From NCBI GenBank assembly GCA_016204585.1, contig JACQKH010000045.1, positions 1 to 39,659 on the forward strand: a stretch of DNA of 39,659 bases. The letters are read 5' to 3'. Every line of letters begins with the position of its first letter. Position 1 is the first letter of the stretch. This document shows, piece after piece, positions 4,226 through 34,160 of the stretch. This DNA comes from Candidatus Kerfeldbacteria bacterium. Lineage in GTDB: Bacteria > Patescibacteriota > Patescibacteriia > SBBC01. Under the pieces are notes generated by a model, which did not search any database, had not been told where the DNA came from, and was given only the letters and a program-made list of their open reading frames with translations. The position numbers and the translations under genes are program-made.

Positions 4226-4240
4226 GCCATGGTGCTGGGT

Positions 4241-4306
4241 TCAAGACCGTCGCTTTCGACCGCTCAGGCACCTCTCCGCCACGCTGCGGGACAAGACTGT
4301 CCCTTT
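4241..4306 (-). pseudogene. Two partial tRNA-Ser(UGA) 5'-half relics
   Basis: 4241-4280 (minus) GGCGGAGAGGTGCCTGAGCGGTCGAAAGCGACGGTCTTGA and 4291-4306 AAAGGGACAGTCTTGT match the 5' half of the intact tRNA-Ser. Confidence 0.75.
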
Positions 4307-11177: not shown

Positions 11178-11693
11178 TTAGTTTGTAAGAATATCGATCC
11201 GGTCAGCGACCACGCTCGTTTGGCCGTCAATCACGTCAATTGAGTGGACGTCCACTGAACCGCCGACCTTAATATCCGAGAAGGTCGCCGCGGTCCGCGG
11301 TCGGGCGGCATTCGCGTCGAGACTAACCGGCGCTTTACCGATCGTGGCTACTTCGGTGTTCTGCAACATGTTGACCAGGATGATCTGCTCGCGGGCGTTG
11401 CCGTTCACGTTCTGGAAGAGGCGAACCGCTAAGCGGTTGTCGTTGATTTCCTTGATGATGCCGACGAACGAATGGCGGCCGGCCGGCGCATCAGTGGTGA
11501 TTCTGGTGGTCGTGTTTTGCGCGGCGACCGAACTTCGCGTTGCCTGGACGTTGACTGGTCGATTCTTGTACCAAATCGTGAAGATCGAGAGGGCGCCGAG
11601 CATCGAGGTCAAGACTATCACGATTGTTACTAAATGTTCATTACCCCATAGTCGTGCGCCGGCACGAGTTTTTTTTAAGGAGATTTGTTCCAT
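11178..11693 (-). CDS. Membrane-anchored hypothetical protein (DUF5666-like β-rich domain)
   Basis: Likely start MEQISLKKTRAG; TM then FVGIIKEINDNRLAVRL... pattern. Confidence 0.6.
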   Translation of the reverse strand: MEQISLKKTRAGARLWGNEHLVTIVIVLTSMLGALSIFTIWYKNRPVNVQATRSSVAAQNTTTRITTDAPAGRHSFVGIIKEINDNRLAVRLFQNVNGNAREQIILVNMLQNTEVATIGKAPVSLDANAARPRTAATFSDIKVGGSVDVHSIDVIDGQTSVVADRIDILTN

Positions 11694-11821
11694 TGACTTT
11701 TCGAGTAGAATGTGGTTTTGCCGAACGTGAAAATCTTGTCGACAAAACCGCTTTCTTTTGGTAGTATATGTAGGAAGGCGACTGTCTGTCAAAGGACTAA
11801 AACAAGTCGTTAGCTTCAACC

Positions 11822-12724
11822 ATGCGAAAAATTCAAACACGCTCTAAATCAACCAAGCGTTTCGTGCTCATGGCTGTGCTCGGCGTACTTGGGATTTTTG
11901 TTATCTTTAGCATTCCGCTTAAAGTACGTTCAGTAACTTACGAGGCGCCGAGCGGCTCGCCGCCGGTAAGCGACAGTTCGGCAGCGCTCAACGTTTCGTC
12001 CTCAATCCAGACCAAGATCGGAGGTTTAACGCTTAACAACGGACTGACCATTGGGAACAATTCAAACTTAAACGTCTTTGGCGACGTTTGCTGGAATGGA
12101 GTTTGTAAGAATTCGTGGGCTGAGGTTTCCGGAGTGTCGGCCATCGAGAGGTTCGTGAAATTGATATCGGACCCTACCGACCCAAGCGGCTGGGCTGACC
12201 TAACTGGATCAGACAACGCCACGACTTTGAAACTCAACTCGCCGGTGCCGACGTTTCCGGCCGCTGCTCCGGGAGTGGATGCCGGGGTGTTTGGTCAGGA
12301 CGACGGCTCGAGTGCTTCGGCGAGCTACGGAGTGGCTGGTTATGCTAGCCGGAATAGCGACAAAAGTTATGGCATCTACGGTACTTCGTCGGCAACAAGT
12401 CCGTCCTGGGCCGGGTACTTTGCCGGAAACGTGGCGGTAAGTCCGGACAATGACCTGATCGTCGGCGGATCGATTACGCAAGGCAACGACTCGAACGTGA
12501 GCGAGTTGTGCATCAATGACGTCTGCCGTTCGGAAATCCTGCTGACCGGTGACCAGTACTGGACCGTCAGCGGCAACGACCTTCAAGTCGCTGATACCGG
12601 CTTGAATCTGGCGGTCGGCGGAAAAGATTCGCGGGCCAGTTTTTTCGTCCAGAACAACGCCAGCCGTTTGAACGTCACGCTTAAAGTGAACGGGGTCGGC
12701 AATAGCGCTGACCTGTCGCTATGA
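11822..12724 (+). CDS. Exported modular surface protein, type A paralogue 1
   Basis: N-terminal TM, LNVSSSIQTKIGGLTLNNGLTIG, CWNGVCKNSW, YGVAGYAS..WAGYFAGN, LCINDVCRSE. Confidence 0.8.
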   Translation: MRKIQTRSKSTKRFVLMAVLGVLGIFVIFSIPLKVRSVTYEAPSGSPPVSDSSAALNVSSSIQTKIGGLTLNNGLTIGNNSNLNVFGDVCWNGVCKNSWAEVSGVSAIERFVKLISDPTDPSGWADLTGSDNATTLKLNSPVPTFPAAAPGVDAGVFGQDDGSSASASYGVAGYASRNSDKSYGIYGTSSATSPSWAGYFAGNVAVSPDNDLIVGGSITQGNDSNVSELCINDVCRSEILLTGDQYWTVSGNDLQVADTGLNLAVGGKDSRASFFVQNNASRLNVTLKVNGVGNSADLSL

Positions 12725-14136
12725 ACAAGTCACTGGTCTATGCTCCGCCGATCGTAGTAGTGACATTTGTCACGGTGCTGGTTGGGCTGCGCGTTTCCGC
12801 CGCCACCTTTTCAGCGCCGAACTTGCCCGAGCCCGGCGGAAATATCTCATTGCCGTTGAACACTTCTTCAAGTCCGCAGACCAAGGCCGGAGGATTGACC
12901 GTGGAGGGGGATGCGACAATCCAGAACGGCTTAACGCTCGGTCAGGCCGGTGGCTCCAGCAAGATCTGCTGGAATGACGACGGTACCGGCCTGAACTGTC
13001 GTAATAACTGGGGCGAGCTCAGTACGGTCACTGGTTACTTGCGCTTGAACTCGGGCGGAGCTGGTCCAGCCGATACCGGACACATTCAAATACAAGGCAC
13101 CTCCGGATCCAGTGATCCGGTCGCCACCGTCACGGTTCGCGCCGGCACGACAACCGCACCTTCCGAGTCGTCTTACGGCGTTTACGGAGTAGCCGTTGGC
13201 GGAGTTCCATCCGCGATAAGTTACGGCGTTCTCGGTCAAGCCACGGTGAATTCATTTCAGCGCGCCGCGATCTTTGGGAGCAGCGCCGGTTTCCCGAATG
13301 CTTGGGCCGGGTACTTTACCGGCGGCGACGTGGGCGTGGCAGATCAATTTGATCTGGCTGTTGGCGGCACCGCCGTCCTGAATAACACCACTCAGCTATG
13401 CCTCAACAGCACTTGCATTGATAGTTGGCCGCCTGATGCGGGAAGCGGTTTCTGGGAGCGAAGCAGTTCGAATCTTCACCCGCTTGATCCGACCAAGTCA
13501 ATAACCGTAGCCGGCAGCGTGTCGACGGCTCCTTTTCATGTGGCGGTCATCTCGGACGGCTCACCGCCAGATCCGGACAAGGCAGATCTGACCATCATTG
13601 CCGGCACAGCTAAATTCAATCAGTACATTGTCGGCACTCCGCCGCCGTGTAATGATCCGCCTGGCACCTGTTACCTGCCGGCCGCTGATACTTGCGGCGA
13701 TGGAATATGCAGCAACAAGGAATGCGATTCCGGAACGACACCGGGCTGTACCACCGCCGACCCGAACCACTGCCCGGCTGATTGCGACATCACCCCGCCG
13801 GATGACGTCGGGGTTGACACTGAGCTCGAGGTCTGCGCGGGGAGCGGGTGTCCTCCGCCAACTCCGCCGACTCTCTACGTTAAGTGGACTAACCCAGGTA
13901 ATTCGGATTTTGCCGGTACCAGAGTCATCGTGAGTTCCGACCGCTATCCGACCGGGCCGACTTACATTGGTGACCTCGGGATCATGAAAGATATCGCTAA
14001 ACCCGGGACCACGTATAGCGCACCATGCAATCTTAGCACGCGGTACTATGCTGCTCTATACGCTTACGACCAAATGGGTAATTTCGCGCCCGGCATTCTC
14101 TACGATCCGCTCTGCACCACGCTGCCTGTCCAGTAG
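12721..14136 (+). CDS. Exported modular surface protein, type A paralogue 2, with CGDGICS Cys motif and Fn3-like C-terminus
   Basis: ATGA overlap with the previous gene; PLNTSSSPQTKAGGLTV, YGVYG..WAGYFTGG, CLNSTCIDSWPP, CGDGICSNKECDSG, Fn3-like WTNPGNSDFAGTRVIV. Confidence 0.8.
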   Translation: MNKSLVYAPPIVVVTFVTVLVGLRVSAATFSAPNLPEPGGNISLPLNTSSSPQTKAGGLTVEGDATIQNGLTLGQAGGSSKICWNDDGTGLNCRNNWGELSTVTGYLRLNSGGAGPADTGHIQIQGTSGSSDPVATVTVRAGTTTAPSESSYGVYGVAVGGVPSAISYGVLGQATVNSFQRAAIFGSSAGFPNAWAGYFTGGDVGVADQFDLAVGGTAVLNNTTQLCLNSTCIDSWPPDAGSGFWERSSSNLHPLDPTKSITVAGSVSTAPFHVAVISDGSPPDPDKADLTIIAGTAKFNQYIVGTPPPCNDPPGTCYLPAADTCGDGICSNKECDSGTTPGCTTADPNHCPADCDITPPDDVGVDTELEVCAGSGCPPPTPPTLYVKWTNPGNSDFAGTRVIVSSDRYPTGPTYIGDLGIMKDIAKPGTTYSAPCNLSTRYYAALYAYDQMGNFAPGILYDPLCTTLPVQ

Positions 14137-14155
14137 CGACTTGGGCTTTTGAAAC

Positions 14156-15502
14156 ATGAAACATATATTACGTCATAATTCAGTCCTCGTCATTCGCCTG
14201 ACCACGGCCTTGGTCGCGATGGCTGCTGTTTTAGCGGCTGGCCGGGTGGCTGCTCAGATCAATCCATTCAGTCCAACTGAACCGCCAGGAAAGCTTCCCG
14301 GGTATTTCGACGTTCTTCCCTTGAATACATCGTCATTTTCTCAGGTTAAGGAAGGTCCTCTTACGGTCAATGGGCCGTTCACCGTGGGCCGCAGCATTGT
14401 CGGCAGCTTCTTGAACGTTAGCGGTTCGATTCTTTGGAACAGCGACCGGCGCGACAACTGGGAAACAATCGGCAGTCGGAATTTCGTTCACCTCTATGAC
14501 CTTTCGCATCCGGTCGGAATTGCCGATGTGGGCGTCGCGTCTGTGGTCGGTGACACCAGCGGAACCGCAACTTTTACGGCCAAGGCCGGCACCGGGAGAA
14601 ATACCGCTGGGGTTTCCGGCTACTCGGCGGCCACTGGTTCCGGACTAAGCGCCGGGGTGGTCGGTGAAACACAGAATCCGACCGGTTACGGCGTTTACGG
14701 AACGGTTGGGTCGAACACCCAGGCCTGGGCTGGGTATTTCTCGGGCAACGCCGGGATTGCCGCGCCGCGCGATTTAATCATCGGATCAGTCGGCGGCGGT
14801 GTTTCCGCAGCCCGGACGAACGTTATTTCCGAAGTCTGTCTTAACGGCGACTGCCGTTTGACCTGGCCGCCATCCGGCGGAACGCTTTGGTCAGTCAACG
14901 GCGCGACGCTGTGGCCGTCGTCGGAAACGGTCAGTCTGATCGCGGGCGGCACTGAACCAGACGCGGTAAAGCGTTGCGTGACAAATCCGAGCGTACCGGA
15001 TCCCAACAAGTCGAAATTTAGCGTGATCAACAATCCTAATTTCACTTCGGACGTCTGCCTGGTTAGCGGGACTGCCTCGTTGGGACAAATTGTTATTGGC
15101 GCACCAGTCAGCGGAACGCCGACCGCCACTACCTGCGGCGACGGGATTTGCAATGGCAACGAGACCGGAGGCTACGGCCAGCCGACCTATTGCGGGAAGG
15201 ATTGCGACTTCACTGCACCAAACTCGGTTACCGGCGCCACTGCCAGCGGTTCGCCGCAGGTCACGATCAGTTGGACCAACCCGGCGGCCTCGGATTTCTC
15301 CGGCACCAAAGTGGTCATGACCATCGGTACGCCGCCGTCTAAGATTCAGGGCGCCAGCCTGATCGGAACGGAAGTTTCGCGGCCGTCAAGCAGCTTCACC
15401 AGCGCGCCCCTGACGCCGGGCACGTACTACTTCGGTCTCTACAGCCACGACCAGGCCGGCAACTTCGCGACCGGAGTTATTGTTGAGGTCAGATTACAGT
15501 GA
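14156..15502 (+). CDS. Exported modular surface protein, type A paralogue 3, with CGDGICN motif and Fn3-like domain
   Basis: PLNTSSFSQVKEGPLTV, YGVYG..WAGYFSGN, VCLNGDCRLTWPP, CGDGICNGNE, ISWTNPAASDFSGTKVVM. Confidence 0.8.
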   Translation: MKHILRHNSVLVIRLTTALVAMAAVLAAGRVAAQINPFSPTEPPGKLPGYFDVLPLNTSSFSQVKEGPLTVNGPFTVGRSIVGSFLNVSGSILWNSDRRDNWETIGSRNFVHLYDLSHPVGIADVGVASVVGDTSGTATFTAKAGTGRNTAGVSGYSAATGSGLSAGVVGETQNPTGYGVYGTVGSNTQAWAGYFSGNAGIAAPRDLIIGSVGGGVSAARTNVISEVCLNGDCRLTWPPSGGTLWSVNGATLWPSSETVSLIAGGTEPDAVKRCVTNPSVPDPNKSKFSVINNPNFTSDVCLVSGTASLGQIVIGAPVSGTPTATTCGDGICNGNETGGYGQPTYCGKDCDFTAPNSVTGATASGSPQVTISWTNPAASDFSGTKVVMTIGTPPSKIQGASLIGTEVSRPSSSFTSAPLTPGTYYFGLYSHDQAGNFATGVIVEVRLQ

Positions 15503-15514
15503 TCAAACCGATTC

Positions 15515-16420
15515 ATGAATAGAACAAATCAACGCCGACCAACTCCATTTCGCACACTCGTTCGAGTTCACGCCCGAACCGGTTTGGCGGTCGCGGCGGT
15601 TCTCAGTATGATCGGATTTCTCCGCCTGGCGCTGCCGGCTTGGTCGGCCACGATTACCCCGGGCGCCAACCAGAAGGTGACGGTCTATCAGGGCGTGGCG
15701 ATCGTGGCGCCTGGCGACCCGGGCGCCAGCATCATGGAGATTGGAAACGCCGGCCGGGACATTGCCAGCACCGGCAGCATCTTCCTCCGGCCGAACAGTA
15801 CCGGTTCCGGCACCCGCTTCTACCAGTGTACGGCCGGGTCGTGCTTCGGACTTCAGAATCTTGATCTGACCGGCGATTTAACCATTGGTAAGGACTTGTG
15901 TTTTTTCGGCGGGGACTGCCGTTCGAGCTGGCCACCTGGGACGACTGAGTGGAAACTAATCAACGTCTTCGGACCGGTGCTCCAGCCGAAAGTGCTGACA
16001 AACGCCGTCCACGTCGGCAGTCCCGGATCGCCGGTGCAGGGCGGCCCGGCGCTCAACGTGGCCGCGCCTGGCGGAGTCGCGACGTATGTGAACCGCGGTT
16101 CCGGTTATGCCGGCCTGTTCGACGGCAACGTGTCCACGACCGCTGACGTCAAGGTTTACGGTACGATAACCTCAAACGGACGGCCGGTCTGGGATGCTTC
16201 AAACGATGGTCAGGGGTCGGGATTGGACGCCGGGAAAATTGACGGAATGGTTGTGAGATACGAAACTCCGGACAGATGCACCGACGGTCGAGATCAGCAA
16301 GAACATCTCTATTGCCTGTGTTTTAGCGGCCGCCAGGCGGACGGAATAACGCCGCTTCCCGGAGCAGATTCGTTGGGCCGTGATTTCTACCGTTGCGCCC
16401 CGCTGTTTAATTACTTCTAG
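15515..16420 (+). CDS. Exported modular surface protein, type B paralogue 1
   Basis: VTVYQGVAIVAPGDPGASIMEIGNAGRDIASTGSIFLRP, LCFFGGDCRSSWPP. Confidence 0.8.
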   Translation: MNRTNQRRPTPFRTLVRVHARTGLAVAAVLSMIGFLRLALPAWSATITPGANQKVTVYQGVAIVAPGDPGASIMEIGNAGRDIASTGSIFLRPNSTGSGTRFYQCTAGSCFGLQNLDLTGDLTIGKDLCFFGGDCRSSWPPGTTEWKLINVFGPVLQPKVLTNAVHVGSPGSPVQGGPALNVAAPGGVATYVNRGSGYAGLFDGNVSTTADVKVYGTITSNGRPVWDASNDGQGSGLDAGKIDGMVVRYETPDRCTDGRDQQEHLYCLCFSGRQADGITPLPGADSLGRDFYRCAPLFNYF

Positions 16421-18364
16421 ATGCCAATGCGAAAGCAAGTGAAAAAACGTTATCGGCAAAGCACCAGCCTTCTCCGCAATAGTTTGATGGCCATTTTGCT
16501 CGTGCTATTGCTGACGGTGTTCCGGTCAACCCTCAACGTGAAATCCGCCTCGGTGACCGGCGCTCCGGAGAAACTCAAGGTAACGGCCGGCGTTCTGATC
16601 GTCAATACCGGCGCCGCCAGCGACAGCATCCTCGAACTCGGCAACGCCGGCCGGGATATCGTCTCAACCGGCGACATCTACTTCCGGCCGGACAACACCT
16701 CAGCCGGACTCCGCTTCAGCGGGAATACGACTGATAACACGCAGGACTTGCTGGTGACCGGCGATTTGAGCGTCGGCCGGAACATTTGTTTGGGCGGCGT
16801 CTGCCAGAGCGCCTGGCCGTCAACAATTGATCTATGGGAAACAGTGACCAACGCCGGGTTTACCTACCTTCAGCCGAAGCAAGATGCCGGAATCAACCCG
16901 GCCATCCAGATCGGCGATCCGGTCAAGTTCTGCGCGATTGACGGCAACGAATGTACCTACTCGGGCGATTGTCGTCAAGAGAACTGCATTGCCAATTCAT
17001 GCGAACAAAGCGGCGGCTATTGCGAAGATTACACCTGGTGTCCGAACCTGGCTTGCACTGGCGCAGGCGGGGTGTCTGGCAAGAACGCCCTCGAGGTCTA
17101 CGGCCGCACCACCGGCAGCGCGCTGCAAAGCGGCGCAGGTTACACCTTTTTCGGCGAGTTTGACGAAGCAGGCAATCCCATCCCCGGCAGCGGCAACGTC
17201 AGGGTCAGCGGCATTCTCGACGTGAATAAACGTGATGTCAACTGGCTGTTCAATGATATTTCGAACCGTTCATCTCTGAAGAGGCTGGCCGCAGGAGTTG
17301 ATGTGTTTACCAAAGCGTTCCACTACCTGAACAATGATCCATCCCCGTTCGAGATGCCGACGGAAATTGACGCGGACACGCTTATCGCTGAAGCAGCGAC
17401 GCCTTTCACCAATCCGTCAACCAAGAAAAAGGACTTCTTTTGGAAGAAAAAAGACGTGACGTCCCAATCGGAGGGCTATACCTACCATTATGACGCGTTG
17501 TGCGTGGCTTCGGATTATACAAATCTTTGTCAGGGAGGGACTGCCAGCGGAAATCCCTGTGTTACCCCGGCGCAGGTGACTGCGTGCACAAATGGCGGCG
17601 GAACCTGCAAAACCCTTTGTAAAAACGAACAACAACTGTGTAAAGCCGAGATGGCCGGTCGCTGCGCGGCTGGCAGTGGAAAGGATATAGGGCTTGGATA
17701 TAACGTTGACTTTGAAAATTTTCCATGTAACCCGGCGGAAAATGGGCCGCTACCCGGCGGATTAAATCCGGCCTGTGGAACCGGAACCTGCACCACCTCA
17801 TCTTGTCCTTCCGGATACAACAACTGCTCGCCGCCGATAGTTTCAGGCGAGTGTCAGAGACTAGCATCGAACGGAGGTATTACTCTTACCGGAAGGACTT
17901 GTCGAAGTTCGAATGACTGTCAATCTACGACTAACCCGCTTGATAATTGGTATCCAGGAGAAATCTGCGTTTTTGGCAAGCTTTTTGTCTATGAACCAGG
18001 GGCGGGAGCGGTTTCCTGTCAAAATAGTGAACAGACCTACGGCAGCGCTTCTTGCGAATATAAATGTAAGCAGACAAATACCGCCGATTGGTATAATAAT
18101 ATCCCCGGGGTCTATCCAGCTTGCACCGGTCAAGATCAATGCACGTCTTTGAACCCTGACGACATAAACATTTATCGAACCTCCGGCTACTGCACCTGGC
18201 GAAATAGCTATCCCCAGGATCGGACCGGCCAGCGGTGGTTCTGCGATTGCGTTCTCCATGAATCGTTGCCATACACCACGACCACAACCGGCAGCGGCGG
18301 AGACCTATGCACGAATCGGTTTTTCAGGGAGCAACTTCCAATTACTGCGGTTTCACCGCCATGA
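16421..18364 (+). CDS. Exported modular surface protein, type B paralogue 2, long Cys-rich C-terminal region
   Basis: ILELGNAGRDIVSTGDIYFRP, ICLGGVCQSAWPS, many Cys motifs (CRSSNDCQS, CTNGGGTCKTLC). Confidence 0.8.
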   Translation: MPMRKQVKKRYRQSTSLLRNSLMAILLVLLLTVFRSTLNVKSASVTGAPEKLKVTAGVLIVNTGAASDSILELGNAGRDIVSTGDIYFRPDNTSAGLRFSGNTTDNTQDLLVTGDLSVGRNICLGGVCQSAWPSTIDLWETVTNAGFTYLQPKQDAGINPAIQIGDPVKFCAIDGNECTYSGDCRQENCIANSCEQSGGYCEDYTWCPNLACTGAGGVSGKNALEVYGRTTGSALQSGAGYTFFGEFDEAGNPIPGSGNVRVSGILDVNKRDVNWLFNDISNRSSLKRLAAGVDVFTKAFHYLNNDPSPFEMPTEIDADTLIAEAATPFTNPSTKKKDFFWKKKDVTSQSEGYTYHYDALCVASDYTNLCQGGTASGNPCVTPAQVTACTNGGGTCKTLCKNEQQLCKAEMAGRCAAGSGKDIGLGYNVDFENFPCNPAENGPLPGGLNPACGTGTCTTSSCPSGYNNCSPPIVSGECQRLASNGGITLTGRTCRSSNDCQSTTNPLDNWYPGEICVFGKLFVYEPGAGAVSCQNSEQTYGSASCEYKCKQTNTADWYNNIPGVYPACTGQDQCTSLNPDDINIYRTSGYCTWRNSYPQDRTGQRWFCDCVLHESLPYTTTTTGSGGDLCTNRFFREQLPITAVSPP

Positions 18365-19254
18365 CAAAAGCATTAAAAAACTCTTTCATCATAATCTGGT
18401 TGGTGGCGGCGATTGGGATTTTCCGTTTCAGCCCGTCCGCCTTTTCCAAACCGCTAACCTCCGGCGCCAGCCAGAAGCTGACTGTTTACGAAGGCGTTAT
18501 CACCATTGACCACACCCCTGGCGGAAACATCCTGGAGCTCGGCAACGCCGGCCGGGACATCGCCTCAACCGGCGAGATTTTCGTCCGCCCGGGAAACACC
18601 ACGGCCGGCACCAAGTTTTATGCCGCCAGTCCATCCGAACCGCAAAATCTGTTGCTGACCGGAAGACTGACGGTCAATAAGGGTTTGAACTTTAACGGCC
18701 AATACATTACTGGCTGGACTACCGGCAGCTCCTTCTGGTTGCCCGCGGCCGGCAATTACGTCGAGCCGAACCCGCTGGCTTACGGAGTTCAGTTCAACAG
18801 CGATACCAACGTCTTGGCGAATAACGGCGCAAACCAGAGCGCGCTGTACGTAGTCAACTATGACCTGTCAGGATTGGCCGCCAAGTTCGAATCCCCGCCG
18901 CCAATTAATCAGACAATCAACATCTACGGCAACCTCGAGGCGACCGGAAATATCAGGAGCGGCGCTGAAGGCAACCTGTTTGACGTTTGGACTGACTCGA
19001 ACGACGGATATAAGGCCGCGCCGACCGGACCTGATTATCTGGATTTGCTGGATGCGGACTTGCTCGACGGGGTTAACCTTGACCTGGCCAAGGGAATCGA
19101 CCGCAATCCTCCTCAGAATCCGGCTTGTGATATTAATCTTGAGGCCTCATCTAACATGTCGTGTCTGTGCCGCGCAAATCCCAACAATCCGGCTGTATTC
19201 GAGTGCATCGAACTCACCTGCAACAGACCGGGAGATTGTGTATCATCCTCCTAA
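18361..19254 (+). CDS. Exported modular surface protein, type B paralogue 3
   Basis: Start MTKALKNSF overlapping the previous stop; LTVYEGVITIDHTPGGNILELGNAGRDIASTGEIFVRP; LDADLLDGVNLD. Confidence 0.8.
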   Translation: MTKALKNSFIIIWLVAAIGIFRFSPSAFSKPLTSGASQKLTVYEGVITIDHTPGGNILELGNAGRDIASTGEIFVRPGNTTAGTKFYAASPSEPQNLLLTGRLTVNKGLNFNGQYITGWTTGSSFWLPAAGNYVEPNPLAYGVQFNSDTNVLANNGANQSALYVVNYDLSGLAAKFESPPPINQTINIYGNLEATGNIRSGAEGNLFDVWTDSNDGYKAAPTGPDYLDLLDADLLDGVNLDLAKGIDRNPPQNPACDINLEASSNMSCLCRANPNNPAVFECIELTCNRPGDCVSSS

Positions 19255-19262
19255 TAGCCACC

Positions 19263-22200
19263 ATGAGAAGAAAGTTAGTAGAACCCATCTCAAAATTCCA
19301 TTCCGGCTCTGCGGAGCGGAATTTCGGGCTGCGGGACTTCGTCTCGGATTCGAAATATCACGGATATTCCTCATCCTCCGACTCGTCCCTCGCCACGAAA
19401 TTCCGCCCCTCGGCTCGAAAGCGAATTTTGAGATGGGTTCTAATCATTTCAGCGGCGTTTAATCTCAAGGTTCTGAAAAGCTTCATGCTGGTTGTGATGG
19501 CTGGAGCGATTTTTGTCACCATTCCCTCCAGCAGCCGGGCCAGCAATTTCGTCAAGGTCGGCTCGCCGTTCAGCGCGCCGATCAACCTCTACGGCGTGAC
19601 CACGCTCTACGACCGGGCGGAGAAAACTTACAAGGCCTGGGCGGTTGGCGGTCTGGTCTTCACCGATCCCGCTACCGGAACGGAAACCACAACTACGGCA
19701 GTCATGATGTACTTCAATGGTTCGTATTGGGCAAAGGTGCCGATTCCCCCCGTCGGCCGGCCGCTACGGTCGGTTTCCGTTATCCAGTATTTAAGAACAA
19801 TTGACTCGGCCGGAAACAGACTTACCCAGCCGAAATGGGCGCTTTCCGGCTGGGCCGTAGGCGATAAAGTGCCGGATCCCGACAACCCAGGCATGTATAT
19901 CGGCGCGACCATTTTAAAGCTCGATCCGGACGTAAACGCCACTAATCCGCTGGCCTTCAACTCCTGGACCAAGCAGCGAAAGATTAAACCGCCTTCATCG
20001 CTGGCTGGTAAACCGTGTCCCGAAGACTTTGTTGAAAATCTGACCCTGTGCACCAACTGGACCGAGAACAATCTCAAGGCCGTGGCCGCGGTTAACGATC
20101 GCTTGGCCGTGGCCGTCGGCGAGGCCGGCACGGTGCTGCACTATGATTTGTCGTTCGATAAGTCTATTTACACTTCGCCGTCGTACGATACAACTGTTGA
20201 GTATTGGAATTCGCAATCAGGATTTGCTCCAACCGACACCATCAACGCGGTAACCTTCCTGGACGAAGCTCATGGCTGGCTGGCTGGAGCTAACACTAGT
20301 GTCAACGAAGGCCGGGTTTGGAAGTACACCAAACAAAGCAATCAGTACGACACGATGGGATCATTAAATATTCCGGACATTATTTACACAAGCATTGCAG
20401 CCACCCTTCGTCCTTCGCTGACGTCGGGAGACCCCTTAAAAAGCGTATTGTGGCTAGGTACAACCTTTAGCGCTATCCCGTCCTACGGCCTCATCCGTTT
20501 CGATGAGAAACTTAATCGACTTTCTTCTACTTACGGGACCGGCGCTCCGGTTAGCGGCATAAGTTTGACCAGGCGCGCCGGCGGCCAGGATCAGAACCTC
20601 CTCCAGAACGGTTCATTCAACGCCGACCGGAAAGACGAGAGCGTCAGTAAGCGCATTCCGGACGGCTGGGAACTCAGCAGTCCGTATTACGGCGGGTCAA
20701 CGAATTTTACTTCGCCGCTGAATCTCCAATCAGCAAATCTAGTTGATCGAGTGTCGGGCAATCCGGCCTATGTTGGCGAGTCGGCCCAGTCAGTGACCAA
20801 GACTGACGGCGTAACTGCTAGAACGCTCGTGATCCACCACTCAGGACTCGCCGATTATTTCAATGCCTTTTCAAACAATTTTCCAAACGATACCTATGCG
20901 AGTTTTTCGAGTGGATCAACGCCTGTCAGTTTGCAGATGGAAGATGCGACAACTCCGCTCATGTCAACGCTAGTTCCTGGCCAGGGTGATTATTTCTCAC
21001 TCCCTACCCACGCCAACAGCAACGGATACGTTGGTCCGCCGGTTCAGGTCGGCCTATCCATCAACGGATTTTTGCGTATTCCCGGTGTGGAGTCATCCGA
21101 TCGGCAGTACGAGTTTAAAATCGAGCATCCGAAGGGCTGGGTGAATTTCGATATTGAGAATGATGTCAGCGGCGACACGCTGGTCTGCCACGGCGGCAGT
21201 AATCACGGCGCAGCGTGCACCAGTTTGTCCGATCCGTCCTGCACCAGCGGCGGCGGCGTCTGCAGCCCGAGCTCCCAGTATCCGGCTAACAGCGCTGATC
21301 CGGTAACTGACAATTCTCTGATTGCTTGGAACCCGGGAATTTGCCAGAATGATCCGTTGATCCCTACCAGAATTTGCGTGGGGGGAAGTAACGAAGGCGA
21401 AGTCTGTGATGATCCGACTGACTGCTTGGACGGCGGGACCTGCTTCCCGAGCACGCAAAAGGTTCAGTGCTTCAACAACGACGAGTGTAACATCGGCCGG
21501 TGCTTTGAACCGAACTACTACAATAGTAATGATAATAATATATACAGCGTGGGGCCAATTCGCTGCACGAATGATGAAACATGCCAAAGCGTATATGGCA
21601 ACAATGCCAGTTGCGTGCCGTTTAATTCCCCCCCGAATTGCGTAGACGCTCCGTCAACGGGAGAATCAACCTCTAAGCCAATTGAGTTCAGGCAAGGAGA
21701 CGGGTTTAAAGCCCGCGTCTGCGACGGTGGTGCTAATAGCGGGCGGTCGTGCGTAGACAGTTCACAATGCCCCGGCTCAGCGTGCGGGCTGAAGGGACTG
21801 GGGTGGTTTCCGTTTACTCTCCGTTATTTTCAGCCGTGGAAAAGGGCTTGCTCGGGGAGCCCAATGATGCGTTGTTATGACAACTCTGATTGTGTCGCGC
21901 CGGCAATCTGTGAGAATACGGATTTGAGCTACTACTATGAAGGGCAATGCACCAAGAAAGACGGAACAGTGACTGGAACATGTTCCAGCAATGTCAATGA
22001 TGCAAATGGCATTAGCCCCTGTGGTTACGAAAACGACGCGTACGGAAATCCCACCGTCAAGATCAACTGTCAGAATATACGGACTAAACCTGACCGCTCG
22101 AGCTTGAAGGTGTCCTACCGTGAAGTTGGCGCGCCGACTTGGAATCCCGTGCAAGATTCCGACCTGCTGGTGTCGGCCAACCCTAACTTCGTTCCGGGCG

Positions 22201-25112
22201 AAACAGATCGCGCCTCGATTGTCCAGGAAGTTCCATTTACCACGCTGCCGGGCACGAGTTTTTCCGTCAGCGGTAAATACAAAATCGAATTTCCGAACGA
22301 CTTTCTACCAGCCACCGCTTCGCCCAGCGATCCCCGGCAGCCGAAGTCTCCGCAAGCCGGCATCCGCGTCCGTTGCACGAACGGGACGAACGACGCCTGC
22401 GGTTACGACGTACAAACCTTCCAAGCTAACTCGGCGATTGGCGTGAGCGGCCCCGGGACGTCTTGCCGACGTCCGGACGGAACGACCTACGGCCGGAGTT
22501 GCACCACCAACGCCCAATGCGACGGTGGTGACACGTGTGTTGGACAATGGGTTGATTTTTCCGCCACCGTCACCAAGCAGAATCGTAACGCCGGTACCGG
22601 TCTGCGCACGGCCGACGATCCGAGCCAGGGCTTGGTCATTGAATGCTTTGCCGACTATGGGGCGCGCGTCGGTTGCGACGATATTACGGTGGTGCCGCTA
22701 AGCGAAGCGGCCCTCAGTGGCTTTGACCAGGTTGACGCCTGGGCCGTGGATGAGGGCGGCGCAGTCTATCAAAACACCCTGGATTTCAACAACTCCTTGC
22801 CCGACCCGGACCCTTGGAGAGTAGTCGTTCAACCATCGGCCGTACCCCTCCGCAGCGTGGCGGCGGCTGATTCCTATCATCTCTGGTCAGTGGGTGACAA
22901 GACTTCCGACGCGAACGCCACGATTCTTCGCTTAAGCCCGGGAAACGTCAGCGGTTGGGCGTGGATCGGCGCTTCCAGCTCGGCCTCGTCCGGCGACGCG
23001 CTCGGCTGGATTGATTTCAACTGCGGCAACCTCCAGTCATGCGTGAAACAACCCTCTAACTTTGGGGTAAACGTCGAGCTGACCGGCGACGAGGCTGGCC
23101 GGATTGCCGGCAGCGCCTGGCAAGGCACCGAGGATCCGAATGACGTCATAGATTACGGCCCATGCATTGGTGGCGACGGTTCTCCGACAACTAGTCCTTC
23201 TTGCGACGTGGTGTGTTCGAATAACAGTTTGCGCCTTTGCTCGAACAGCAGTCAGTGTGAGGGTACTTGCAGTAAAAACCAGGGATTTAGGTGTAGCACG
23301 GACGCCGACTGCCAGGTTAGCTGCGCTGCCAATCCGGTGGCCTGCCGGTCAATCGGCTGGTTGTCATTCGATAAAAAGGTAACCGGCACTCCGCCTGAAC
23401 TGCCGTACAACACTGCTTATGACCCGGATGATCGTAGCACATACTATACCGCCAAGTTTGACAACGTTACAGACAAAATTGACGGTTGGGCGCGCTTTGA
23501 ACTCGGCCAATGCAGCGTCTCAAAGCAGTCATGCTTCCAGTCAACTTCCTGCCCATTACGCCAGAGCTGCGAATGGTCAGGCGCAGCGTCGGTGCCTGGA
23601 CAGATTCCGGCCGCTGAAGCGAACGCCAAAGCCGGTTGGGTTAAGCTGCGCGGCGATGATAATCCGTCATCTCCGGTGACCGGCGACTTTTTCGGTTGTC
23701 AGGATTGTACTGAGATTGTGGGTGGAACTACTCCTGGGTATTGCGGTACTACCTCAACTGAGTGCGGTATTGACCTTGATTGTCTAGATGCTGGATATAC
23801 CGGCCCGGATGCACAATGCTTAAAGACATGCAAGATTTGCACCAAGTACTCTAGCGGAGCCGTGGCTACTGATTATCCGGCGTGCAATTCCTGCTCGCGG
23901 TGCACCCTCAAACGATGCAAGACCCAGAACGCAAATCAACGATGCACAGGGGACTATCAATGTAACGACATCGCCGGCGATTGCCAGAAGTACGGCATCA
24001 CTGACGACGGAACGGGAAATATCTGTTTCGGCGATCTGGCGGACGGCACCAAGTGCGTTATCGGGGCGCAGTGTATTTCCTGTAACAGCTGCAGCAAGTA
24101 CGGCGTGTCACTAGATGTCGGCGATACCAAGAATTTCAGCGGCTTCGCCTGGAGTCCGGACCTCGGCTGGATTGACTTCAGCCTGGTGACGCTCGGCGGG
24201 CAAGCGTTTTTCCAAACGAAATTCGGCGACATCTACGCTGGCGGCGATATTGGCAGCACGGCCACCGGCCTCCCGCCCGGCTACCCGGGTGGTTCAGCCC
24301 AATGCAACGCCACTTACCGGATCGTGTCAGCCGGCACCATCACCAACTTCTGCTCGGCCGCGCCGGGCGGGCTGGCCAGTCCCTTTATCGAACCGGGGGC
24401 GCAGCTCTTTCCGTTGCCGGTTCCCGAAAACCGATTCACCGCCAGGATCGGCTCGCTCGACATTGAAGGTTTGACCGCCGTGGCGAAAACGGTTGGCAGC
24501 AAGAACTTCAACAAGTACGGGGACGAGGTGGTGGACGTACCGGACGGAGAGGAACTCTCCCACGTTTGCGACGGAGCGGTAACGGCCGGTCGCTGCGATA
24601 ATAACGATTCCAAGCTGCTCGGGAAGGTTTATCATGTCAAAGGAGATTTCGTTATTGATCGTGACTTTTCGTTCAACGCCGGAGTGAGCTCGGTCGAGAG
24701 CGGAGCAGGCACTTTCGTGATTGACGGCGTGCTACGCGTGCAGGGAAATACTTCCTATCCACCGGCCGGTGCGTTGATTCAAAACCGGCGGCAGCTCCCG
24801 TCAGCCGGATTTTTCGTGCTCGGTCCTGGCGGTATTACGGTCGAACCGAATGTTTCCAAAATGGTCGGTGCCTACTACGCCAACGGTCAAATCACGGTCA
24901 ATTCCAGCGGGTCAGGCGGAGACAATCAATTGGTGGTCAGCGGTCTGATGGTCGCAAAAACCTTCGGTTTCCAGCGGACCTTCCGGGGTATCTCCGGTGA
25001 GCAACAACCGGCCGAACAAGTGATCTACGACGGTCGCCTGACGGTCAACACGCCGCCGGGCTTCTCGCAGCTGGCGCAGGGTTTGCCGAACTTGCAAGAA
25101 GTTGTGCCGTGA
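19263..25112 (+). CDS. Giant (~1.9 kaa) exported Cys-rich surface protein with propeller-like N-terminal region and conserved C-terminal domain
   Basis: Open over 5.8 kb; start uncertain (19263, or 19485 MLVVMAGAIFVTIPSSSRA); repeated AVGG/AVGE/WLAGA/LWSVG motifs; at least ten Cys-rich motifs; GWIDF/GWARF/GWVKL/GWIDFS motifs. Confidence 0.85.
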   Translation: MRRKLVEPISKFHSGSAERNFGLRDFVSDSKYHGYSSSSDSSLATKFRPSARKRILRWVLIISAAFNLKVLKSFMLVVMAGAIFVTIPSSSRASNFVKVGSPFSAPINLYGVTTLYDRAEKTYKAWAVGGLVFTDPATGTETTTTAVMMYFNGSYWAKVPIPPVGRPLRSVSVIQYLRTIDSAGNRLTQPKWALSGWAVGDKVPDPDNPGMYIGATILKLDPDVNATNPLAFNSWTKQRKIKPPSSLAGKPCPEDFVENLTLCTNWTENNLKAVAAVNDRLAVAVGEAGTVLHYDLSFDKSIYTSPSYDTTVEYWNSQSGFAPTDTINAVTFLDEAHGWLAGANTSVNEGRVWKYTKQSNQYDTMGSLNIPDIIYTSIAATLRPSLTSGDPLKSVLWLGTTFSAIPSYGLIRFDEKLNRLSSTYGTGAPVSGISLTRRAGGQDQNLLQNGSFNADRKDESVSKRIPDGWELSSPYYGGSTNFTSPLNLQSANLVDRVSGNPAYVGESAQSVTKTDGVTARTLVIHHSGLADYFNAFSNNFPNDTYASFSSGSTPVSLQMEDATTPLMSTLVPGQGDYFSLPTHANSNGYVGPPVQVGLSINGFLRIPGVESSDRQYEFKIEHPKGWVNFDIENDVSGDTLVCHGGSNHGAACTSLSDPSCTSGGGVCSPSSQYPANSADPVTDNSLIAWNPGICQNDPLIPTRICVGGSNEGEVCDDPTDCLDGGTCFPSTQKVQCFNNDECNIGRCFEPNYYNSNDNNIYSVGPIRCTNDETCQSVYGNNASCVPFNSPPNCVDAPSTGESTSKPIEFRQGDGFKARVCDGGANSGRSCVDSSQCPGSACGLKGLGWFPFTLRYFQPWKRACSGSPMMRCYDNSDCVAPAICENTDLSYYYEGQCTKKDGTVTGTCSSNVNDANGISPCGYENDAYGNPTVKINCQNIRTKPDRSSLKVSYREVGAPTWNPVQDSDLLVSANPNFVPGETDRASIVQEVPFTTLPGTSFSVSGKYKIEFPNDFLPATASPSDPRQPKSPQAGIRVRCTNGTNDACGYDVQTFQANSAIGVSGPGTSCRRPDGTTYGRSCTTNAQCDGGDTCVGQWVDFSATVTKQNRNAGTGLRTADDPSQGLVIECFADYGARVGCDDITVVPLSEAALSGFDQVDAWAVDEGGAVYQNTLDFNNSLPDPDPWRVVVQPSAVPLRSVAAADSYHLWSVGDKTSDANATILRLSPGNVSGWAWIGASSSASSGDALGWIDFNCGNLQSCVKQPSNFGVNVELTGDEAGRIAGSAWQGTEDPNDVIDYGPCIGGDGSPTTSPSCDVVCSNNSLRLCSNSSQCEGTCSKNQGFRCSTDADCQVSCAANPVACRSIGWLSFDKKVTGTPPELPYNTAYDPDDRSTYYTAKFDNVTDKIDGWARFELGQCSVSKQSCFQSTSCPLRQSCEWSGAASVPGQIPAAEANAKAGWVKLRGDDNPSSPVTGDFFGCQDCTEIVGGTTPGYCGTTSTECGIDLDCLDAGYTGPDAQCLKTCKICTKYSSGAVATDYPACNSCSRCTLKRCKTQNANQRCTGDYQCNDIAGDCQKYGITDDGTGNICFGDLADGTKCVIGAQCISCNSCSKYGVSLDVGDTKNFSGFAWSPDLGWIDFSLVTLGGQAFFQTKFGDIYAGGDIGSTATGLPPGYPGGSAQCNATYRIVSAGTITNFCSAAPGGLASPFIEPGAQLFPLPVPENRFTARIGSLDIEGLTAVAKTVGSKNFNKYGDEVVDVPDGEELSHVCDGAVTAGRCDNNDSKLLGKVYHVKGDFVIDRDFSFNAGVSSVESGAGTFVIDGVLRVQGNTSYPPAGALIQNRRQLPSAGFFVLGPGGITVEPNVSKMVGAYYANGQITVNSSGSGGDNQLVVSGLMVAKTFGFQRTFRGISGEQQPAEQVIYDGRLTVNTPPGFSQLAQGLPNLQEVVP
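19279..19442. mobile_element. MITE-like full-length palindrome, 20-bp perfect terminal inverted repeat including TA ends
   Basis: TAGAACCCATCTCAAAATTC (19279-19298) / GAATTTTGAGATGGGTTCTA (19423-19442); inner IR GCGGAATTTCG (19316-19326) / CGAAATTCCGC (19396-19406); central AATATCACGGATATT. Confidence 0.75.
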
Positions 25113-25185: not shown

Positions 25186-25214
25186 TAGACAGATAGCTTT
25201 TTTTGTGCTATAAT
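25186..25214 (+). promoter_or_regulatory. σ70-like promoter TAGACA-N17-TATAAT for the pilM operon
   Basis: -35 at 25186-25191, -10 at 25209-25214, 17-bp spacer. Confidence 0.75.
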
Positions 25215-25266
25215 TTTTGCATGGAATGTTACTTGCCGAGCACCGTTTTTGCGGGTGGTGGTATAC

Positions 25267-26376
25267 ATGGCACTCTTTAAGGGTCGGGGAACAAGTTTTC
25301 TCGGAGTTGACATCGGAACTTCGAGCATCAAGGTGGTGGAATTCCGGAATGAGGGAGGACGTCCGCGACTGGCAACCTACGGCTTTCTCGAACGGCCGAC
25401 GAACATCATCAAACTCGATTCGGTCCAAGAGCAGAACGACGTGGCCGCGGCTTTGACGCAGATCGTTAAAACGTCGCGGGTCAACACCAATCGGGCCGTC
25501 GCCGCCCTCCCGAATTTTTCAGTCTTCACTTCGATTATCAGTTTGCCGGTGATGCCCAAGAAGGAGATGTACGCGGCCGTGCGCTGGGAGGCGAAAAAAT
25601 TCGTGCCGATGCCGATCGAGGAGATGGTGCTTGATTGGCGGTTGTTGAAAGAAAAGAATAAATCACCTAGTCAAACCACCGAATCGGTCAGCCCCGAAGA
25701 TGGGAAAGCGACCGAAGAGAAGGGGCCCAAAAACCTGCGCGTTCTGTTGACCGCCGCACCGAAAAACCTGGTTAAGCGGTACATCGACATTTTTAAGAAT
25801 ACCGGCTTGCGCTTAGTCAGTCTGGAAACCGAATCATTCGCGCTGGAGCGCTCGCTCCTCGGCGGCGAACCAGGATCGTTCATGATTGTTGACGTCGGTG
25901 CCGTCGCCACCAACATCACCATTACGGTCAACGGCGTGCCTCTCCTCAATCGCTCGATCGACGTCGGCGGCGACACCATCACCAAAGCCATTGCCAACAG
26001 TTTAAATGTTGACCTTGAACGCGCCGAACAGTTCAAACGAGACGTCGGCGTCCAAGGGGCGACCGGCGGCGCCAGTCAAATTCCCCGCGCCATCGAATTC
26101 GTCATTACTTCCGTCGTCAACGAAATTCGTTATGTCCTCAATCTTTATCGAAACCAAGGAGAGAAACCGATCGAGAAAGTCATTCTGGCCGGCGGTTCGG
26201 CTTTCTTGACGAACCTTCCCGAATACCTGTCAGCCACTCTGAACATGCCAGTCGTCATCGGCGACCCCTGGGCGCACGTCATCTATCCACTCGATCTCAA
26301 GCCGGCGCTCGATGAGCTGGGTCCGCGCTTCGCCGTGGCCATCGGGTTGAGCATGCGCGAAATCGTCTCGCCCTAA
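25267..26376 (+). CDS. pilM: Type IV pilus assembly protein PilM
   Basis: LGVDIGTSSIKVVEF, AAVRWEAKKFVPMPIEEMVLDW, MIVDVGAVATNITI, VILAGGSAFLTNLPEYL. Confidence 0.93.
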   Translation: MALFKGRGTSFLGVDIGTSSIKVVEFRNEGGRPRLATYGFLERPTNIIKLDSVQEQNDVAAALTQIVKTSRVNTNRAVAALPNFSVFTSIISLPVMPKKEMYAAVRWEAKKFVPMPIEEMVLDWRLLKEKNKSPSQTTESVSPEDGKATEEKGPKNLRVLLTAAPKNLVKRYIDIFKNTGLRLVSLETESFALERSLLGGEPGSFMIVDVGAVATNITITVNGVPLLNRSIDVGGDTITKAIANSLNVDLERAEQFKRDVGVQGATGGASQIPRAIEFVITSVVNEIRYVLNLYRNQGEKPIEKVILAGGSAFLTNLPEYLSATLNMPVVIGDPWAHVIYPLDLKPALDELGPRFAVAIGLSMREIVSP

Positions 26377-26381: not shown

Positions 26382-27587
26382 ATGCCAGACATTAACTTGC
26401 TAGAAGAAAAAGAAGAAGCCGACGAAAAATCGGCCGCCAAGCCGAAGATTCCGCCGGCGCGGATTGAATACTCCAGCCCGGAATCAAAGGCCGAACACGG
26501 GCGACTACTAAAGAAGCCGTCTACTTTTAGTCTTTGGTTCCGTTCGCTGTTTCGCCGTCCGGGCGCTCAACATCCGCGGCCAACTCCGCCGGTGACCGGT
26601 GAAAAATCTGCTCCTCGCCGTCCTTCTCCGGATACGACCAAATCCAACATCGCCGAGCCGGAGGATATTTTTGCCGACCTGCCGAGTTACGGCGGCGGGC
26701 CAGTCAAGAAACCAGCTGGGCCGTCACCCCAACCGCCGGCGCCTTCCGGTCCGAAGCCAGGAGACTTTCCACCGCTGCCGAGGATGTCTGAATGGACGCC
26801 GACGACCGGGCAATCACCGCGGAAACCGCCGGCAACTCCGAGACCCCCCCGCCCCCAAACTCTTGGCGAATCATCTCCTTCATCATCGCCGTTATCTCCG
26901 CTGATCTCCCAAATTAAGCGGAAGCCTGCCCGCCAAGCGTTGCGTCAACGAGCGCCGGTTGCCGAGGAAGATGCCGGCGTCAACCTGTTGCCGGAAGAAC
27001 TGGTGGTCGATTTCGAGCCACGGAAAAAACTCACCACCCTCGGCTTGGTGGCGCTGGCGGCCGCCTTGGTCGTCGGCGTGATTGACGTCTCGCTTCTTCT
27101 CTGGAAGGAAACTCAGGTCAAGAAGACGAGGGAGAAGGAGGGTGAGGTGGCGCAGACGGTGCAAAGGATTAAGGCGCTCGAGACAGAGCAACGACGGGCG
27201 ATCGCCCTCCGCTCGTCCACGCGGACGATCCGCGCTCTTCTAAATACGCACATTTACTGGACCGAGTTTCTCAAGAAATTTGAAAAATATACCCTACCGA
27301 CCGTCATCTACCCGGGTGGAATAACGACCACCTTCCGCGCCGGAATTACACTGACGGGGAGAGCGCCCGACATCGCCACCATCACCAAGCAGCTGGCGGT
27401 CTACCAGCAAGCGACTGACTTCATTAAGACTGCCAAAGTCGAGAACATCATCCGCAACCATGAGAAGGGGAGCGAGGGAACCTACAACTTCATCGTCGAT
27501 CTTACTTTCGTCGACGAGGTCTACAACAATCCGGTTGATGCCCTAACGGCCCCGACCGAAATCCAAAAGTCACAACCAAAACCATGA
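26382..27587 (+). CDS. pilN: PilN-like protein with Pro-rich N-terminal extension
   Basis: VNLLPEELV followed by TM and coiled-coil; located between pilM and pilO. Confidence 0.85.
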   Translation: MPDINLLEEKEEADEKSAAKPKIPPARIEYSSPESKAEHGRLLKKPSTFSLWFRSLFRRPGAQHPRPTPPVTGEKSAPRRPSPDTTKSNIAEPEDIFADLPSYGGGPVKKPAGPSPQPPAPSGPKPGDFPPLPRMSEWTPTTGQSPRKPPATPRPPRPQTLGESSPSSSPLSPLISQIKRKPARQALRQRAPVAEEDAGVNLLPEELVVDFEPRKKLTTLGLVALAAALVVGVIDVSLLLWKETQVKKTREKEGEVAQTVQRIKALETEQRRAIALRSSTRTIRALLNTHIYWTEFLKKFEKYTLPTVIYPGGITTTFRAGITLTGRAPDIATITKQLAVYQQATDFIKTAKVENIIRNHEKGSEGTYNFIVDLTFVDEVYNNPVDALTAPTEIQKSQPKP

Positions 27588-28288
27588 AACTTCCGCCGAT
27601 AGCTCGCAAACTAATAACGCGGCTGATGACCTCTTACTTCCGCTATTTGGTCTGGTCAGTGGTCGGGGTGGTGTTGCTGCTAGGATTGTTAATGGTTATT
27701 AAACCACAGTTTGAGAACGTTCGTTTGGTCGGTGTCCTGGCCCTCGAGGAAAAAAAACAGCAACTCAAGGATCGGACTACCTACTACGACAAGGTCAAAG
27801 CAATGGTCGAGAAGTACCGATCGCTGTCTGGCGAAGAGACCGAAAAAATTTCGCGAATCCTTCCATCGCGACCGGAGGTTTCCGATCTTTTCCATTCCCT
27901 CGAGTCACTGGCGACTGCTTCTGGCATGACGCTCGAATCGGTGGCGGTCACGAAGGGCTCGAGCGCGGCGACGGCCGCCCAACCGAGCGGCGCCGCATCG
28001 GCCCGCCGGGAGGCGACGGCCGGAGCGCAAAACAGAACCGCCTCGTCCGATACCGTACAATTTCTGGATGTTAATTTGAGCGTCAGCGGACCGACTGATT
28101 ACGCCACGTACAAGCGATTACTGCAGAACATTGAGAAAAGTCAGCGCTTGTTTGACGTCGGCAGCATCGCCTACAAGCCCTCCGAGACGAAGGTCCAGTT
28201 AGCCGGCGAGGAATCGGCTACCGGCAATACCATCACCATCACCTTTAAAACATACTATCTCGAGCCAGCCGGATCTTCGCCTTCCTAA
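27584..28288 (+). CDS. pilO: PilO-like protein
   Basis: TM plus coiled-coil plus ferredoxin-like region, synteny; overlaps pilN by 4 nt. Confidence 0.85.
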   Translation: MKLPPIARKLITRLMTSYFRYLVWSVVGVVLLLGLLMVIKPQFENVRLVGVLALEEKKQQLKDRTTYYDKVKAMVEKYRSLSGEETEKISRILPSRPEVSDLFHSLESLATASGMTLESVAVTKGSSAATAAQPSGAASARREATAGAQNRTASSDTVQFLDVNLSVSGPTDYATYKRLLQNIEKSQRLFDVGSIAYKPSETKVQLAGEESATGNTITITFKTYYLEPAGSSPS

Positions 28289-28293
28289 CAATT

Positions 28294-28608
28294 ATGGCCC
28301 TCGCCCAAAAAAGAAATACCCGACAGTCGACATTGCTCTTGATTGTGCTGGCCGCCATCATTATCGCCGGCATCATCGTCTATTACTCGCTCCGGCCGAA
28401 GACGACGACCACTGGCCCCGGCCGATCAGGTGGCAGCGCCAACGACCTCGAAACGTTTACTGATTTCGGGGAAGATCTTTTTACCGAGGACCAATTTAAG
28501 TCACTGCGTAATTTTTCTAACACCAATATATCTACCCCGCCGTCACCGCCAATTGTCGCACCGCCGGGCGATTCGACCGGGAACCCTGATCCGTTTCGTC
28601 TGCAGTAA
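28294..28608 (+). CDS. Small bitopic membrane protein in PilP position
   Basis: 104 aa, N-terminal TM, Pro-rich tail; synteny only. Confidence 0.65.
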   Translation: MALAQKRNTRQSTLLLIVLAAIIIAGIIVYYSLRPKTTTTGPGRSGGSANDLETFTDFGEDLFTEDQFKSLRNFSNTNISTPPSPPIVAPPGDSTGNPDPFRLQ

Positions 28609-28612
28609 ATCT

Positions 28613-30379: not shown

Positions 30380-30381
30380 AG

Positions 30382-30460
30382 TAGCTTATAGCTTGCTAGC
30401 TTCATTAGCTTGTTGGGAGGTTGCCAAAAAAGCTAAAAAGCTAGGAAGCTAACAGCTAAC
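30382..30460. repeat. AGCT heptad/nonad inverted repeat between pilB and receiver gene
   Basis: AGCTTATAGCTTGCTAGCTTCATTAGCTTGTT ... AAGCTAAAAAGCTAGGAAGCTAACAGCTAAC. Confidence 0.8.
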
Positions 30461-30470
30461 ATTAACATCT

Positions 30471-30872
30471 ATGCCGAAAAAAACAACTCATGATGCGTCG
30501 GGAAAACCAAGAATCCTGGTAGTCGAGGATGATTCTTTCCTGGCCGGGATGTACGTCACAAAACTCGGACTCGAGGGATTCAGTGTTGACCTAGCAAGCG
30601 ACGGCCGGGAGGGTCTGAAGAAGGCCAAGGACGGAAAACCGGATCTGGTCCTCCTCGACATCGTCCTGCCGGTGATGGACGGTTTCACTATGCTCGAGCA
30701 CATGAAGTCCGATCCTGAATTGCGCAGCATCCCGGTGGTCCTCCTGACAAACCTCGGCCAGAAGTCTGACGTGGAGAAGGGATTAAACTTAGGCGCGGCT
30801 GACTACCTCATCAAGGCGCACTTCATGCCGAACGAGGTGATCGAGAAGATCAAGAGAATCCTGAACGGCTAA
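30471..30872 (+). CDS. Stand-alone CheY-like response regulator receiver
   Basis: VVEDDSF, LLDIVLPVMDG, LLTNLG, DYLIKAHF motifs. Confidence 0.92.
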   Translation: MPKKTTHDASGKPRILVVEDDSFLAGMYVTKLGLEGFSVDLASDGREGLKKAKDGKPDLVLLDIVLPVMDGFTMLEHMKSDPELRSIPVVLLTNLGQKSDVEKGLNLGAADYLIKAHFMPNEVIEKIKRILNG

Positions 30873-30876
30873 TCGC

Positions 30877-31950: not shown

Positions 31951-31952
31951 GA

Positions 31953-32023
31953 AGCTTATAGCTTCATTAGCTTCGTTAGCTTGTTAGGGCGTTCTAAAAA
32001 GCTAATGAAGCTAGCGAAGCTAA
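31953..32023. repeat. AGCT heptad/nonad inverted repeat between pilT-like and pilC
   Basis: AGCTTATAGCTTCATTAGCTTCGTTAGCTTGTTAG ... CTAAAAAGCTAATGAAGCTAGCGAAGCTAAC. Confidence 0.85.
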
Positions 32024-32035
32024 CTATCTGCTCCA

Positions 32036-33283: not shown

Positions 33284-33303
33284 GTTGTGAGGGAGTGGAT
33301 GAG

Positions 33304-34096: not shown

Positions 34097-34114
34097 TTCG
34101 CGCTTGGTATTTGG

Positions 34115-34146: not shown

Positions 34147-34160
34147 TCCTTTGATGTTGA

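Follow-up and report, generated by a model that had tools for sequence, protein, structure and literature searches.

A giant exported protein encoded upstream of pilM in a Candidatus Kerfeldbacteria genome carries a conserved tail linked to type IV pilus loci

Seven same-strand open reading frames (positions 11822-25112) upstream of pilM in a Candidatus Kerfeldbacteria genome encode three A-type proteins, three B-type proteins, and one giant protein, and a protein family defined by the C-terminal ~340 residues of the giant is encoded next to pilM, or within 2 kb of it, in 35 of 39 sampled loci. With moderate confidence, we interpret the giant as a modular adhesin or receptor that is associated with the pilus and accompanied by accessory surface proteins, which would make it a nonorthologous analogue of PilY1/PilX. 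The window, by which we mean the whole stretch of DNA that was analyzed (39,659 nucleotides), is a single contig (C14) in a 1.04-Mb draft genome. Within it, the seven-ORF block is flanked by a divergent u11178-lemA-htpX-clpC group on one side and by the pilM operon on the other (Table 1).

Table 1 Features of the seven-ORF block and the adjoining pilus genes
Feature	Position	Strand	Description
A1	11822-12724	+	Exported, 300 aa; signal peptide/TM, LNxSxxQxKxGxL motif, GVxG/YGIYG/WAGYFAGN module; without C-terminal Fn3
A2	12721-14136	+	Exported, 471 aa; A module, Cys motif (TCGDGICSxxE), Fn3-like C terminus
A3	14156-15502	+	Exported, 448 aa; A module, Cys motif, Fn3 domain (residues ~350-448)
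B1	15515-16420	+	Exported, 301 aa; ELGNAGRDIxSTGxIFxRP module, LDAGKIDG motif, direct repeats D1/D3
B2	16421-18364	+	Exported, 647 aa; B module, Cys-rich C terminus
B3	18361-19254	+	Exported, ~297 aa from ATG 18361 (ORF opens at 18307); B module, LDADLLDG motif
Dispersed inverted-repeat element	19272-19449	.	178 bp, between B3 and giant; false N terminus of giant ORF
Giant	19428-25112	+	Exported, Cys-rich, about 1.85-1.88 kaa; start TTG 19428 or ATG 19485
Giant head, first five propeller-like blades	19542-20594	+	AWAVGG, GWAVGDK, VAVGEAG, GWLAGAN, LWLGTT
Head insertion	20595-22706	+	~700 aa; NGSF...PDGW (carbohydrate-binding-like, by eye), Cys-rich repeats
Last two propeller-like blades	22707-22955	+	DAWAVDEGG, LWSVGDK, running into SPGNVSGWAW
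Conserved pilM-linked tail	24090-25109	+	Predicted beta-solenoid family; GWIDF, YDGRLTVNTPPGF
pilM	25249-26376	+	PilM_2, E = 1.4e-45; start probably an ATG a few codons in
pilN, pilO, pilB (28616), response regulator (30471), pilT (30877), pilC (32036)	26382-33247	+	
pilA, second prepilin (34755), pilD (35789), minor pilins (36611, 37318, 38551)	33578-39426	+	

The tail carries the motif PAExxIYDGRxxxNxPPGL, and in an alignment of twenty relatives the invariant positions cluster at YDGR...N.PPG. A profile in which the window tail is a founding row has matches in 166 of the 383 class genomes and in 90 of 289 genomes in a phylum sample. Linkage to pilM, also seen in the first 20 relatives, was surveyed in 39 tail loci fetched mainly as one per family, with pilM sought independently in each. 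In 34 loci pilM follows the tail gene directly, at a distance of 7 to 340 bp, and in one it follows after ~2 kb; in two others the tail gene is beside pilT or pilD, which places 37 of the 39 in a type IV pilus (T4P) locus. The contig ends at the tail gene in one of the remaining two loci, and the other has no T4P gene. Both the motif and the pilM adjacency of the window tail are confirmed in independent loci, several tail matches outside the class likewise adjoin pilM, and the linkage is class-wide. An earlier reading of the DNA from its sequence alone had called for a survey of pilM-flanking genes, holding that orthologs away from T4P loci would speak against a pilus-associated system; the survey bears the linkage out. 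The tail itself, the most informative feature of the locus, was absent from that account, and we found no description of a pilM-linked tail family, or of the gene next to pilM, in the open papers searched.

Class-wide linkage to pilM would also suit a structural or assembly part of the pilus machine, such as an exit or priming factor standing in for a missing part, with the variability of the heads incidental; CPR are reported to be without the PilQ secretin (PMC6744442), and no PilY1 is seen in the locus. We regard such a role as quite improbable, since the tail profile has no match in 217 of the 383 class genomes, so that the protein is hardly essential, and since the heads carry binding domains.

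The tail models as a beta-solenoid. An AlphaFold2 model built from the 20-row alignment is beta-rich, with pLDDT mostly 80 to 97 over residues 160 to 374 of the 380 modeled. When this model was compared with the PDB by Foldseek, ComZ of Thermus, a proposed pilus-tip pilin, came first at a level that is not significant (E = 0.04, probability 0.66 to 0.90), and the other matches, to ice-binding proteins, a hemolysin, and bactofilin solenoids, are not significant alone. The list is nevertheless coherent, because the ComZ solenoid has itself been reported to be similar to ice-binding proteins (PMC6561018). Single tail members also match DUF7305 (PF23981) weakly (best E = 0.0017; on the homolog L040, 16.5 bits against a cutoff of 27) and choice-of-anchor A (TIGR04215, PF20597) below the curated cutoff.

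In the head of the giant, a stretch of ~700 residues separates five blade motifs from two later ones, and on this basis we read the head as a probable seven-bladed propeller with an insertion. The propeller-like motifs had been recognized in the sequence-only reading; they are substantiated through a homolog from another family (L043) but not by the window protein itself. The compact head of L043 is without the ~700-aa insertion, passes the threshold for the Ycf48-type propeller family PF14870 (31.1 bits against a cutoff of 27; Pfam E = 1.8e-7), and matches Ycf48 structures in the PDB (E = 3.2e-8); it ends in SPGNAAGWGW, the counterpart of SPGNVSGWAW in the window. The window head does not reach the PF14870 cutoff, the top PDB match of its profile is Ycf48 at a nonsignificant E value of 0.13, and hhalign pairs it with L043 over the first two blades only (E = 2e-4, probability 46%).

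BLAST matches over 51 loci connect 1275 of 1275 tail pairs versus 30% of head pairs, a contrast (100% versus 30%) to be weighed with the fact that the loci were picked by their tail, which favors tail conservation. A search with the head across the class returned the same family only, plus one weak, broken match. ConA-like lectin domains occur in the heads of two genomes of family f50 (E = 1e-36 and 3e-31), while Pfam recognized nothing in six large heads from other families. Together, these comparisons show a constant tail joined to a lineage-variable head.

This variability bears on the strongest rival explanation, namely that the giant serves natural competence as a ComZ-like receptor for DNA at the pilus tip and is not an adhesin for a host, with the A and B proteins being unrelated surface proteins. 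ComZ, the top fold match of the tail, binds DNA (PMC6561018), and competence and T4P systems are widespread in CPR according to a genome survey (PMC6744442). The ComZ fold match is not significant, however, and the reported DNA-binding lysines of ComZ lie between its solenoid and its pilin domain (PMC6561018), whereas the giant has no pilin domain. Lineage-variable lectin and propeller heads, moreover, suit variable partners better than DNA, which is a constant ligand. We consider a role in DNA uptake unlikely.

The giant ORF opens mechanically at 19161, and its codons ~33 to 98 fall inside an imperfect inverted repeat with copies on other contigs of the same genome (C75) and in relatives (L032, L082), some of which carry in-frame stop codons. 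The first ~85 to 108 codons of the ORF are this element and not protein. Translation starts at ~19428 (TTG) or 19485 (ATG), because a signal peptide ending in PSSSRA is conserved in homologs from two other genera, and with such a start the giant does not overlap B3. The six paralogs had been described as tightly packed or overlapping, which holds for A1/A2 (4-bp overlap), B1/B2 (abutting), and B2/B3 (4-bp overlap, given the B3 start in Table 1). By inspection, the giant and its homologs have Sec-type signal peptides; neither a class III prepilin signal nor a hydrophobic pilin helix is present, while the true pilins of the locus match N_methyl. Docking of the giant would need a partner protein, because it has no pilin helix.

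Searches within the genome uphold the division of the six smaller proteins into two classes of three paralogs. With A3 as the query, A2 (E = 7e-40) and A1 (E = 3e-24) were retrieved with no further match, and with B3 as the query, B1 (E = 1e-27) and B2 (E = 2e-22), again with no further match; at the DNA level the B copies are 73 to 82% identical over 88 bp, and LDG motifs are present in the B proteins. Pfam and NCBIfam scans of all seven proteins of the block gave no significant family, and PHROGs gave weak partial matches only. Those of phage tail-fiber profiles to the A and B proteins are scattered and partial, as in residues 203 to 245 of B1 (phrog_25563, E = 5.5e-6, a partial match). The Fn3-like domains proposed from the sequence are real in A3, whose C terminus matches FN3 structures by Foldseek (E = 3.1e-5). 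The fiber-like middle of A3, the sole A or B protein tried, yielded no confident AlphaFold2 model (pLDDT ~30 to 45).

A-type genes are also T4P-linked. An alignment of the A proteins matches 158 of 383 class genomes, some of these matches being Fn3 or Cys-motif segments in other proteins. When the count is restricted to matches that include the A N terminus, 32 share a contig with a tail, and in 29 of these the A gene precedes the tail gene on the same strand by no more than ~12 kb. In 28 further matches of this kind the A gene and the tail are on separate contigs, several of these A genes being located where a cassette is broken off, and another 18 come from genomes without a listed tail. A strict motif scan placed 15 A-like ORFs upstream of a tail gene and none downstream or on the opposite strand. 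A genes unlinked to the tail exist or may exist.

The cassette order and its flanks are also present in three other genera of the same family, a recurrence far beyond chance, and the flanks kept within the family are clpC-htpX-lemA. On the contigs of two relatives (G003 and G004), clpC-htpX-lemA is followed by A genes and then B, in an order identical to that of the window, and in G003 an A1 homolog comes after lemA. The genomes compared are drafts, and fragment edges explain some missing neighbors. A gene for a small exported-type protein (11178-11840, minus strand), divergent from A1, keeps its place by lemA in two related genera (L076, L079). Farther upstream in the window, a 52-bp tandem repeat (4188-4306) overlaps a tRNA-Ser gene.

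Two reverse transcriptases in the genome are accompanied by template/variable repeat pairs with mismatches mainly at template adenines, which raises the idea that diversity-generating retroelements (DGRs) target the block and keep mutating it as a set of adhesins. The templates match local targets only, no window stretch matches either of them, and no variable repeat was found; we reject DGR diversification of the block as hardly credible. The elements themselves are two probable DGRs elsewhere in the genome, each with a reverse transcriptase gene of ~350 aa and nearby template/variable repeats (L195 6825-6951 and 7321-7447 on contig C19, with 11 of 11 differences at template adenines; L196 8873-9010 and 9390-9527 on contig C40).

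As the sequence-only reading had it, the giant is followed by the pilM operon, the pilM ORF beginning 137 bp past the giant stop, and no canonical PilY1 is visible in the locus; PF05567 has no match in any of the seven proteins. A wider PF05567 scan gave a match in 0 of 193 class genomes, with control genomes equally silent. One relative has a PilX-like gene after pilW without a PilY1 gene behind it. The gap between the giant and pilM contains no terminator-like site on the plus strand. Promoter-like sites, which are consensus matches only, lie before A1 (11739-11767) and before pilM (25186-25214), and given the latter, the block may be transcribed as a unit of its own.

The separate promoter-like site would fit a host-contact coat, in which all seven proteins are displayed on the cell surface or cell wall and never enter the pilus, their genes being mere neighbors of the pilus genes or cotranscribed with them. 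The N-terminal hydrophobic segments of the A and B proteins could be membrane anchors, and the tail is weakly related to adhesive domains of the choice-of-anchor A and ice-binding types. Against this, the tail gene has stayed next to pilM in some 35 families across the class, and in the loci to which it has moved it sits by pilT or pilD, so that we judge a coat independent of the pilus improbable.

Several other features lie among the pilus genes. A single-domain response regulator gene between pilB and pilT (30471-30872) is conserved in many relatives. Two 48-nt direct repeats (33286-33333 and 34200-34247; 73%) flank the pilA region, and an IS200-like Y1 transposase gene of the RAYT type (35292-35801), between a prepilin gene and pilD, overlaps the pilD start. 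A gene for a 23S-rRNA-IVP/bAvd-like four-helix protein (38142-38507) lies between pilV and pilW and has a counterpart with 73% identity at the same place in another genus (L039 18608-18949 and 13541-13720).

In the interpretation that we favor, a modular receptor or adhesin on the pilus, the block would be the outward-facing part of a Patescibacterial T4P, and all seven proteins would be exported by Sec. The C-terminal beta-solenoid tail would be the constant part that docks onto the pilus, most likely at its tip through minor pilins from the same locus, and the N-terminal head, exchanged or remodeled between lineages, would bind the ligand; in the family to which this genome belongs, the head would be a seven-bladed propeller containing a large insertion rich in Cys. 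The A and B proteins may be smaller modular surface proteins that are coexported and likely bind, or are displayed on, the same surface. Jointly, these proteins could recognize a partner cell or surface, as PilY1/PilX-type proteins do elsewhere, and the bound object could then be drawn in by PilT-driven retraction. We infer docking on the pilus or its tip, the ligand, host recognition, and the A/B partnership from this combination of features. A saccharibacterial T4P protein with a beta-propeller, PilX2, is required for host binding (PMC12206443). The multisubunit tip or surface fiber for attachment that was first proposed gains from the T4P linkage of the tail and A genes, the propeller and lectin heads, and the weak ComZ and ice-binding folds. 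In that proposal, the A and B proteins would form one fiber with the giant.

More tentatively, and as a possibility that we would not yet bet on, pilM-linked solenoid tails with exchangeable heads may be a general host-recognition element of Patescibacterial T4P, an independently arisen replacement for PilY1 in which the head type tracks the partner organism. The tail family, recognizable in sequence and fixed beside pilM, supplies a named candidate that can be tested in hundreds of uncultured genomes, and the pairing of a constant tail with changeable heads allows head type to be compared with partner. Both bear on how most Patescibacteria beyond Saccharibacteria find and hold partner cells.

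Among known systems, PilY1 (PF05567) resembles the giant in being a large Sec-exported protein with a propeller domain (seen in the homolog L043 and probable in the window) encoded in a T4P locus, and PilY1 itself is thought to sit on minor pilins. In contrast to PilY1, whose gene follows pilX, the giant is encoded upstream of pilM, none of the seven proteins matches PF05567, the giant head resembles Ycf48, and the protein ends in a predicted beta-solenoid tail. Saccharibacterial PilX1 and PilX2 (N. lyticus TM7x; PMC12206443) are, as is proposed for the giant, Patescibacterial T4P components with no canonical PilD signal and with a seven-bladed propeller; they are lollipop pilins with RCC1 propellers, whereas the giant lacks a pilin helix and has a putative propeller of the Ycf48 type that contains a large insert.

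ComZ of Thermus thermophilus (6QVI; PMC6561018), the best fold match of the tail, has a beta-solenoid domain in a T4P-linked protein, as is predicted for the tail, but ComZ is a DNA-binding pilin into which the solenoid is inserted, a pilin part is missing from the giant, and the match is weak. DUF7305 and choice-of-anchor A show weak sequence similarity over the solenoid in a few tail members, although every such match is below curated cutoffs. Finally, PilB and PilC of Streptococcus sanguinis (PMC8179133) also have a binding module grafted onto a T4P component, comparable to the ConA-like lectin heads in relatives of the giant; unlike the giant, they are pilins with prepilin signals, and there is no significant sequence relation (7oa7, E = 0.97).
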